35,505 bases of DNA from assembly GCA_002746425.1 (NCBI GenBank), contig NVXB01000001.1:150704-186208 (forward strand). The letters run 5' to 3'. Below, piece after piece: positions 4,835-6,007 of the stretch. Both the position numbers and the translations under genes were made by a program. Each line of letters starts with the position of its first letter. The first letter of the stretch is position 1. Source of the DNA: Hyphomicrobiales bacterium. Lineage in GTDB: Bacteria > Pseudomonadota > Alphaproteobacteria > Rhizobiales > GCA-2746425. The notes below the pieces were generated by a model. It saw only the letters and a program-made list of their open reading frames with translations. It was not told the DNA's origin and made no database searches.

Positions 4835-4949
4835 AGGATTGTGTTAAGTCGCTTTATCCACTAAGCTACCATCGAGACAACGCCAATAAGGTTGGATTCG
4901 AACCAACGTCTACTGCAGTCAATGCAATTTGTTTTGCTGTAACAATCCT
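4835..4949 (-). ncRNA. Y-RNA-like element E5 carrying a permuted tRNA-like body
   Basis: Outer stem AGGATTGT/ACAATCCT (4942-4949 with 4835-4842), core TACAGCAAAACAA, T-arm GTTGG-TTCGAAT-CCAAC followed by D-arm GCTT-AGTGGATA-AAGC; acceptor pairing is poor. Confidence 0.65.
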
Positions 4950-4952
4950 TTA

Positions 4953-5026
4953 TGGTGTTCCCTGATGGATTCGAACCATCGCTTTCTGCTCTTCAAACAG
5001 ACACTCTACCCCTGAGTTAAGGGAAC
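4953..5026 (-). tRNA. tRNA-Phe(GAA)
   Basis: Acceptor GTTCCCT/AGGGAAC, anticodon loop TTGAAGA, encoded CCA. Confidence 0.9.
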
Positions 5027-5028
5027 AT

Positions 5029-5448
5029 TTAATATTCACGGCCAATGGTAATGTGGAATGTTTCTATTTCATTTAATCCTAATTCCTTACGAATAAAATT
5101 GAAATATTCACATTTTACCGGCAAAGAATAAAATTTCCAATGTTTTTGAATTTGATTTGAATACTCAAATTCAACTTCATCGTAATTATATTTTTTCCAT
5201 AATTTCTGTTTTTTCGGAGAAATATCTTTTCTTCCGTCCAATACAGTAACATGGCCTTGCCATTTTGAAGCTTGTATAACACTTTTCGAACGAAAAATAT
5301 TTGTTACTTCATTTTCCAATAAAGTTCTATAATAATTAATCAAATATAGATCAACTGGAACAATTATCCAAGGCTTATTTGCTCGTTTCTTTGAATTTCT
5401 TTTTTCAGTATAAATGATTTTAGACTTATATTTAAAATGCATAACCAA
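5029..5448 (-). CDS. 2H phosphoesterase-like (LigT/CPDase-type) protein
   Basis: Two HxTx motifs: GHVTVLDG and FHITIGRE, spacing consistent with the 2H superfamily. Confidence 0.55.
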   Translation of the reverse strand: MVMHFKYKSKIIYTEKRNSKKRANKPWIIVPVDLYLINYYRTLLENEVTNIFRSKSVIQASKWQGHVTVLDGRKDISPKKQKLWKKYNYDEVEFEYSNQIQKHWKFYSLPVKCEYFNFIRKELGLNEIETFHITIGREY

Positions 5449-5468
5449 TCACTTTCAAAAATTTAACT

Positions 5469-5523
5469 GGCTCGGATTGTTTTTTTTTGTTCAATAAAAA
5501 ATTTTGTTTTGCTGAACCGAACC
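5469..5523 (-). ncRNA. Y-RNA-like element E4 (no tRNA-like body)
   Basis: GGTTCGG-TTCAGCAAAACAAAATTTTTTATTGAACAAAAAAAAACAAT-CCGAGCC. Confidence 0.5.
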
Positions 5524-5533
5524 AAATATATAC

Positions 5534-5665
5534 AGAATTGTTTTTTTATTTTTCCAGTTGCTCTACCAAACTGAGCTACCTCCCATCAAGAAAATGGTTG
5601 GGAGGGTAGGATTCGAACCCACGACATACAGGTTTACCTAAAATTTGTTTTGCTGTAACAATTCT
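5534..5665 (-). ncRNA. YrlA-type Y-RNA-like element E3 / permuted tRNA-like gene
   Basis: Perfect 9-bp outer stem AGAATTGTT/AACAATTCT; T-arm GTGGG-TTCGAAT-CCTAC, 3' acceptor CCTCCCA-A-CCA, 9-nt linker TTTTCTTGA, 5' acceptor TGGGAGG, D-arm GCTC-AGTTTGGTA-GAGC, all in permuted order. Confidence 0.85.
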
Positions 5666-5674
5666 AAATTAAAC

Positions 5675-5726
5675 AGGATAAATTCGTTTGTTATCAAAAA
5701 AACAGTTGTTTTGCTGTATTTATCCT
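5675..5726 (-). ncRNA. Y-RNA-like element E2 (no tRNA-like body)
   Basis: AGGATAAAT-ACAGCAAAACAACTGTTTTTTTGATAACAAACGA-ATTTATCCT, 9-bp perfect outer stem. Confidence 0.6.
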
Positions 5727-5729
5727 TAA

Positions 5730-5805
5730 TGGTGCCTATACCAAGATTCGAACTCGGGACCTATTGATTACAAATCAATTGCTCTACCAACTGAGCTATA
5801 TAGGC
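5730..5805 (-). tRNA. tRNA-Thr(TGT)
   Basis: GCCTATA/TATAGGC acceptor, loop TTTGTAA, encoded CCA. Confidence 0.92.
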
Positions 5806-5817
5806 ATTCTAATATTC

Positions 5818-5894
5818 TGGTATCGCATACTGGATTTGAACCAGCGTCTTCACAGTGAAAATGTGAAATCCTTACCCGACTAGACGAATGCGAC
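5818..5894 (-). tRNA. tRNA-Glu(TTC)
   Basis: GTCGCAT/ATGCGAT acceptor, anticodon loop TTTTCAC, encoded CCA. Confidence 0.85.
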
Positions 5895-5903
5895 ATATTA
5901 AAC

Positions 5904-5961
5904 AGGGTTGATTTTAGTTTTTTTGAAAATAAAAAATTTGTTGTTTTGCGGAAACAACCCT
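5904..5961 (-). ncRNA. Y-RNA-like element E1 (no tRNA-like body), first in the array
   Basis: AGGGTTG-TTTCCGCAAAACAACAAATTTTTTATTTTCAAAAAAACTAAAAT-CAACCCT. Confidence 0.5.
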
Positions 5962-5977
5962 TAAACTTTATTATATT

Positions 5978-6007
5978 AATATATAGTAACTCTAGACGAA
6001 AGTAAAG
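5978..6007 (-). promoter_or_regulatory. T4-like early promoter for the Y-RNA-like/tRNA array
   Basis: CTTTACT-N17-TATATT about 15 nt upstream of element E1. Confidence 0.7.

Follow-up and report, generated by a model that had tools for sequence, protein, structure and literature searches.

Layout of the element array

The stretch under study (hereafter the window, 35,505 nucleotides in all) carries five short elements, E1 to E5, interleaved with transfer RNA (tRNA) genes on the minus strand. Their order is E1, tRNA-Glu, tRNA-Thr, E2, E3, E4, an open reading frame (ORF) of 2H phosphoesterase type, tRNA-Phe and E5, followed by a terminator, with spacers of 1-12 nt for most of the array (Table 1). 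The same strand carries a gene for a Ro-like protein about 3 kb further downstream. The window belongs to a 186,208-base contig (G000:C30) whose start is repeated after 150,693 bases, with 1 mismatch in 29,307 bases compared (regions 1-35515 and 150694-186208), indicating that a single phage unit of about 150.7 kb was read beyond its end, with the window as the repeated part. The portal, sheath, major head protein and replication genes of the unit are of T4 type, and a Megablast search of 20 kb of this phage against the phage collection returned no relative. An earlier interpretation made from the letters alone (the sequence-only reading) had described the array as Y-RNA-like; its coordinates and layout agree with the ARAGORN and Rfam tRNA calls and with the element positions, and the terminator it placed downstream of E5 is present. 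The early promoter it proposed was not supported, with 10 promoter-like sites found and 10.2 expected by chance.

The five elements share the core C(A/C)GCAAAACAA, located just inside a terminal stem that pairs the two ends, with a GTT-type tail 3' of the stem in most of them. The array holds four copies of the exact 11-mer CAGCAAAACAA, and the rest of the phage unit holds one; five core copies in the array compare with at most four in shuffles of this A-rich stretch, so that core clustering alone is the weaker evidence. The terminal stems of E1 to E5 comprise 7, 9, 10, 8 and 8 pairs, against the 7-9 originally claimed, and every stem differs in sequence from the others. When the 3' flanks were shuffled, stems of at least 7 pairs arose in 19% of trials and of at least 8 pairs in 5.7%, placing the five stems jointly far above chance. 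Searched as plain sequence, core and tail yielded nine chance matches in the viral contigs scanned, all without stems. A loose stem-plus-core descriptor was too noisy by itself (35 matches in the window versus 15-36 in shuffles), and the argument therefore rests on stricter detectors and covariance models.

E3 and E5 additionally enclose a tRNA-like body in permuted order, running from the core through the T arm, acceptor hairpin and D arm to the closing stem. With the ends joined and the molecule cut at the acceptor loop, ARAGORN called both elements as tRNAs, compared with no calls in native order and 0 of 1000 shuffles, bearing out the permutation that had been suggested. E1, E2 and E4 contain no tRNA module. 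Against the Rfam YrlA model (RF02553), E3 scores 41.6 bits (E 1.9e-7) and E5 26.5 bits (E 0.004), and both show the permuted T arm, acceptor hairpin and D arm of YrlA. Neither the window nor any of five related loci yields a YrlA call from Rfam at the gathering threshold.

Table 1. Features of the array and of its downstream flank, in window positions
Feature	Position	Strand	Evidence
E1, stem-only Y-RNA-like element	5904..5961	-	core CCGCAAAACAA, stem AGGGTTG/CAACCCT, tail GTTTAA
tRNA-Glu (TTC)	5818..5894	-	ARAGORN, Rfam
tRNA-Thr (TGT)	5730..5805	-	ARAGORN, Rfam
E2, stem-only element	5675..5726	-	core CAGCAAAACAA, stem AGGATAAAT/ATTTATCCT, tail GTTTAA; model R1 34.1 bits
E3, Y-RNA-like with permuted tRNA body, encoded ACCA at acceptor junction	5530..5669	-	stem TAGAATTGTT/AACAATTCTG; Rfam YrlA, rotation test, R1 101.8 bits
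E4, stem-only element	5464..5528	-	core CAGCAAAACAA, stem TGGTTCGG/CCGAGCCA, tail GTTAAA
2H phosphoesterase-type ORF	5029..5448	-	two H-x-T motifs (GHVTVL, FHITIG); Pfam PF22547 E 1.2e-4, below cut-off
tRNA-Phe (GAA)	4953..5026	-	ARAGORN, Rfam
E5, Y-RNA-like with permuted tRNA body	4835..4949	-	core CAGCAAAACAA, stem AGGATTGT/ACAATCCT, tail GTTTTA; R1 78.5 bits
Intrinsic terminator downstream of E5	4762..4789	-	11-pair stem, then TTTTATTTT
RlaP-type nucleotidyltransferase, between array and Ro-like gene	3153..4061	-	Pfam PF10127 (RNA repair pathway DNA polymerase beta family) E 3.1e-22
Ro-like gene, DUF2828 + DUF7788	444..1772	-	Pfam matches; vWA with DxSxS MIDAS motif

Covariation and linkage to Ro-like genes

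Two of the outcomes that the sequence-only reading had named as able to refute it, a lack of conservation or covariation and a lack of association with Ro-like genes, did not occur. Eighteen phages carrying a Ro-like gene were read directly. The same architecture occurs near the Ro-like gene in mycobacteriophage Lumos, coliphage wV8, Listeria phage A511, where three elements lie directly upstream of the Ro gene, and Campylobacter phage F368, and it recurs inside a tRNA cluster in Serratia phage BF. Scans counted seven elements in Aeromonas phage 4_4572 and eight in Bacillus phage BcoS-136 near the Ro-like gene, making the array less unusual than first claimed, the more so as phage Y RNAs near Ro60 have reportedly been published. 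Within 1 kb upstream of the Ro gene, in 80 viral contigs fetched by their Ro protein, the Ro strand held 21 stem-type elements, the opposite strand 2 and shuffled sequence 2. Permuted bodies over the Ro loci numbered 85, 2 and 2, respectively, although the 85 include some tandem tRNAs joined by chance; the core is present in 48 of the 85. These 48 elements were chosen by core and body alone, leaving the stem unused, and 31 of them carry a stem of at least 7 Watson-Crick pairs, compared with 3.4% when partners were swapped between loci and 1.5% after shuffling. An alignment of 38 permuted elements from Ro-bearing phages, partly selected for stem and body, shows compensatory change on both sides in 20 of 21 pairs.

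A covariance model, R1, was built from these 38 permuted elements, with E3 and E5 in the training set. The test records were picked by portal protein or tRNA similarity, supplemented by Ro phages outside the training set, and their Ro status was then assigned with profile A1. Full-length matches of at least 45 bits, a line chosen once the scores were seen, occurred in 7 of 14 unseen Ro-positive records versus 0 of 17 Ro-negative ones (hypergeometric p ~0.001), with none in tRNA-rich Ro-negative phages. In two records fetched by portal protein only (G006 and G008), an element precedes the Ro gene by 15 and 80 nt. Streptomyces phage BRock, picked as a control, contains a TROVE gene (1.3e-14) together with two R1 elements. 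By eye, about five elements with a GATGC-type core, lying within a tRNA cluster, precede the TROVE-type Ro gene of BRock (L239:1752-3323 (-) and 3400-3930 (-)). Rhizobium phage RHph_I1_18 (L235) has an RlaP relative and a DUF2828 gene (Ro at 77844-79265) and no strong element match; it may carry a diverged form of the element.

The linkage extends to bacteria. In 80 bacterial DUF2828 loci, all 30 R1 matches below E 1e-3 lie on the Ro strand, and in a 41-locus subset stem-type elements numbered 77 on the Ro strand, 32 on the opposite strand and 16 in shuffled sequence. Forty host relatives searched with R1 gave one match (60.8 bits), adjoining the remnant of a vWA_Ro60/TROVE gene. None of four same-genus bacterial genomes contains the Ro-like gene or an R1 match, indicating that the system arrived with the phage.

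tRNA-order isomers

A second arrangement keeps the ordinary tRNA order, with paired acceptor stem, D arm and T arm, and holds in the anticodon loop a short-loop hairpin followed by CAGC, CTGC or CCGC. Such isomers occur in Cronobacter phage S13, Citrobacter phage Ci1, KVP40, phiWae14, BUCT-ZZ01, 4_4572 and several viral contigs, amounting to about 15 in phages and none in shuffles. The anticodon loop of about 7 nt with its anticodon is absent from them, the hairpin and core standing in its place; ARAGORN accordingly called 0 of 15 without introns and 12 of 15 with large introns allowed. About 40 clear cases were found in bacterial DUF2828 loci, all on the Ro strand and in rows of up to four. 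In an alignment of 38 such elements, selected for having those stems, 98.6% of cells pair versus 37-48% with the partners slid, and both sides change in 20 of the 23 pairs. The corresponding model, R2, matched 6 of 150 genomes of one bacterial family at E 1e-9. A DUF2828 gene, present in 19 of the 150 genomes overall, lies 50-305 nt downstream on the same strand in 5 of these 6, and one of the five had contributed training sequences; the sixth genome is G187. Weak outputs of the tRNA-order detector at L111, L121, L132/L133, L141:2037 and parts of L262/L264 were dropped as chance.

R1 also matches the junction between two tandem tRNA-order copies, as in phages S13 and Ci1, probably KVP40 and phiWae14, and the bacterial loci L277 and L293, so that not all of its matches are permuted RNAs. 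In the alternative register, tandem rows look like permuted RNAs; a register change would convert a tRNA-order row into one, which points to a possible origin of the permutation. On balance, Ro-binding RNAs appear to comprise two topological isomers of a single molecule, namely the permuted kind (YrlA, E3 and E5), with its RNA ends at the Ro stem, and an ordinary-order tRNA bearing a Ro-module hairpin with a tetraloop, usually GNNA. The window phage has the permuted kind only. If the two-isomer scheme holds, phages and gut bacteria would have a class of tRNAs that lack anticodons and are dedicated to a Ro protein. Such RNAs would account for the large-insert 'pseudo' tRNAs annotated in phages such as KVP40, S13 and Ci1 and would offer a possible route from tRNA to Y RNA.

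The Ro-like gene and its neighbourhood

The Ro-like protein matches Pfam DUF2828 (1.1e-30) and DUF7788 (6.6e-41), with relatives in 682 phage records, and the DxSxS motif of the metal ion-dependent adhesion site (MIDAS) in its vWA domain is conserved. TROVE (PF05731) has no match at E 1e-3 in the genome that holds the window, because the partner is of the DUF2828 type. The predicted fold has a mean predicted local distance difference test (pLDDT) score of 80.8, and its only three PDB matches below E 1e-3 are all Ro60/TROVE structures, one being a Thermus phage Ro60. The template modelling (TM) scores are low (0.34-0.37), and these matches count as support rather than proof for a Ro60 fold, a helical-repeat ring with a vWA domain, in the DUF2828/DUF7788 protein. 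The sequence-only reading was right about a Ro60/DUF2828-like gene at this distance; the gene is real but runs off the window, fused to a fragment of galE (UDP-glucose 4-epimerase; window 1-450, G000:C30 ~150556-150693). GC content rises at the junction from about 0.32 to 0.53, and the junction is either a real fusion or an assembly chimera repeated by the wrapped contig.

The phage encodes further proteins of RNA-repair type, comprising RlaP, the 2H-type ORF, Thg1, a CCA-adding enzyme and an Rnl1-type ligase. RlaP relatives occur in 582 phage records and relatives of the 2H-type ORF in 57, jumbo phages among them, and the viral contigs searched with the 2H-type ORF gave no match. Such genes have been placed in RNA repair in jumbo phages (PMC7824862). 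The neighbourhood here suggests RNA repair or quality control during infection.

Several other features of the phage were recorded. The Thg1-like tRNA-His guanylyltransferase lies at window 15407-16174 (-) (Pfam E 7e-21). A phage-encoded permuted transfer-messenger RNA at window 13919-14224 (-) (Rfam RF04321, 86.9 bits) is another two-piece tRNA-like RNA of the genome, and tRNA-Ile and tRNA-Ser at window 17107-17250 (-) adjoin with zero spacer. A family B DNA polymerase that also matches an intein-splicing domain is encoded at G000:C30 67426-70464 (+). Genes for nicotinamide adenine dinucleotide (NAD) salvage, a nicotinamide phosphoribosyltransferase and a NadM/Nudix-type protein, lie at G000:C30 121-123.4 kb; NAD-salvage-like genes were also seen by eye (L334) beside a tRNA-order element of bacterial genome G187.

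Proposed function and alternative explanations

E1 to E5 are very probably phage Y-RNA-like non-coding RNAs, processed together with the tRNAs and bound by the DUF2828/DUF7788 Ro-like protein encoded 3 kb downstream. Two features of Y RNAs in the wide sense, a conserved stem pairing the ends and a location near a Ro60-type gene, are present. From the computed elements, their covariation, the permuted tRNA body and the linkage to Ro genes, we infer joint processing, Ro binding, tethering and a role in tRNA repair. E1 to E5 and the tRNAs would be made as one transcript and processed together. The terminal stem, together with the C(A/C)GC core beside it and a short GT tail, would form a Ro module holding the DUF2828 protein, by analogy with YrlA, whose stem binds Rsr and whose tRNA-like domain is modified by tRNA-modifying enzymes and binds PNPase (PMC8394870, review). 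This putative module is attached to nothing in E1, E2 and E4 and to a tRNA body in E3 and E5. The tRNA body may dock the particle on tRNA-recognising enzymes, such as modification, CCA-adding or ligating enzymes or PNPase, thereby bringing the Ro ring to damaged or misfolded tRNA or ribosomal RNA during infection, while the stem-only members would only bind, store or gate the ring.

Several observations weigh against this interpretation. No array element reaches the YrlA gathering score of 69 bits, and the core of E1 to E5 is CAGC or CCGC, not the AUGC of the YrlA model. E1, E2 and E4 are short and A/T-rich, and for E1 and E5 the folding advantage over shuffled sequence is weak (z -1.56 and -0.85). 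A strong tRNA-type match is absent from 7 of the 14 unseen Ro-positive records, and the tRNA-order element of G187, convincing in itself, has no DUF2828 gene nearby. The Ro-like gene of the window, finally, is truncated, its conserved C-terminal end missing, and in the assembly it is fused in frame to the galE fragment. The Y-RNA-like description has the support of covariation and Ro linkage; with three members lacking a tRNA module and none at the YrlA threshold, 'Y-RNA-like, DUF2828 branch' is a safer label than 'YrlA'.

Among the alternatives, the one that survives best, though unlikely, is that the elements serve as decoys or competitive substrates for host anticodon nucleases and tRNA-targeting defences, with Ro merely stabilising them. 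An anticodon-less tRNA body could occupy nucleases or repair enzymes; the tRNA bodies of the array have no anticodon and are flanked by RNA-repair genes, and the tRNA-order isomers are whole tRNA scaffolds of this kind. However, the stem-only members (E1, E2, E4 and many others) have no tRNA portion that could serve as a decoy, conservation lies in the Ro-side stem with its core, and elements also occur in bacterial Ro loci. Far less probable is that E3 and E5 are algal-type permuted tRNA genes, circularised and cut into working tRNAs: the permuted halves, the encoded ACCA of E3 and the tRNA calls on rotation fit this, but no consistent anticodon emerges, the ARAGORN call shifting with trimming, the conserved stem and core replace the anticodon loop, and E1, E2 and E4 are entirely without tRNA. 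Equally improbable, the repeats would be processing signals, recombination repeats or tRNA-intron remnants rather than independent RNAs, as their position between tRNAs, the short spacers, the A/T-rich genome and the HNH endonuclease gene directly upstream might suggest, yet their stems differ in sequence while always pairing, and the elements follow Ro genes, not tRNA clusters, the tRNA-rich Ro-negative phages having no full-length match of at least 45 bits.

Significance and comparison with known systems

Bacterial Y RNAs have been defined around TROVE-type Ro60 and a single Rfam model. Here a second, widespread variety, with a core of its own and Ro-like proteins of the DUF2828 branch, is traced through numerous unrelated phages and through several phyla of bacteria. 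As a domain, DUF2828 is unnamed, and the predicted RNA partner makes it testable; in the literature search, which excluded most subscription journals, it turned up in four plant papers only. Given its position among genes for RNA repair, the array is a candidate component of the conflict over tRNA damage in infected cells. Three aspects are provisionally new, no description of them having been found in that search: the CAGC-core variety tied to DUF2828, missed by the Rfam YrlA model at its curated threshold; arrays in which stem-only members stand beside tRNA-bearing ones; and tRNA-order isomers, in which an intact tRNA scaffold carries a Ro-module hairpin for an anticodon loop.

As in YrlA, the 5' and 3' ends of E1 to E5 pair into a Ro-side stem, and the array, like the YrlA gene, adjoins a Ro gene; E3 and E5 also have the permuted arm order of YrlA. 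The array elements differ in their CAGC core (AUGC in YrlA), in sub-gathering scores, in the three of five members without a tRNA domain, in a DUF2828/DUF7788 rather than TROVE partner and in lying inside a tRNA operon. The permuted tRNA genes of algae and archaea resemble E3 and E5 in that the 3' half precedes the 5' half, with an encoded CCA at the E3 junction, whereas E3 and E5 have no intact anticodon arm, have their ends held by a Ro-type stem and are accompanied by stem-only siblings.

The broad kind is already known. Chen et al. in 2014 (RNA 20:1715; cited in PMC12282133) reportedly described Y RNAs near Ro60 genes in phages, with at least one per species bearing a tRNA-like domain. The window array belongs to this kind; neither the CAGC-core DUF2828 variety with its GT tail nor the tRNA-order isomers are known to be part of that account. 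In the transcriptome of Listeria phage CKA15, a relative of A511, very abundant non-coding RNAs lie near a Ro-like gene, its authors suggesting possible Y RNAs, and the Ro-like protein was detected in virions (PMC12282133). The CKA15 RNAs are known from expression and the E1-E5 family from structure and core; the two are likened by location, both lying near a Ro-like gene on the same strand, as do the three elements of A511.
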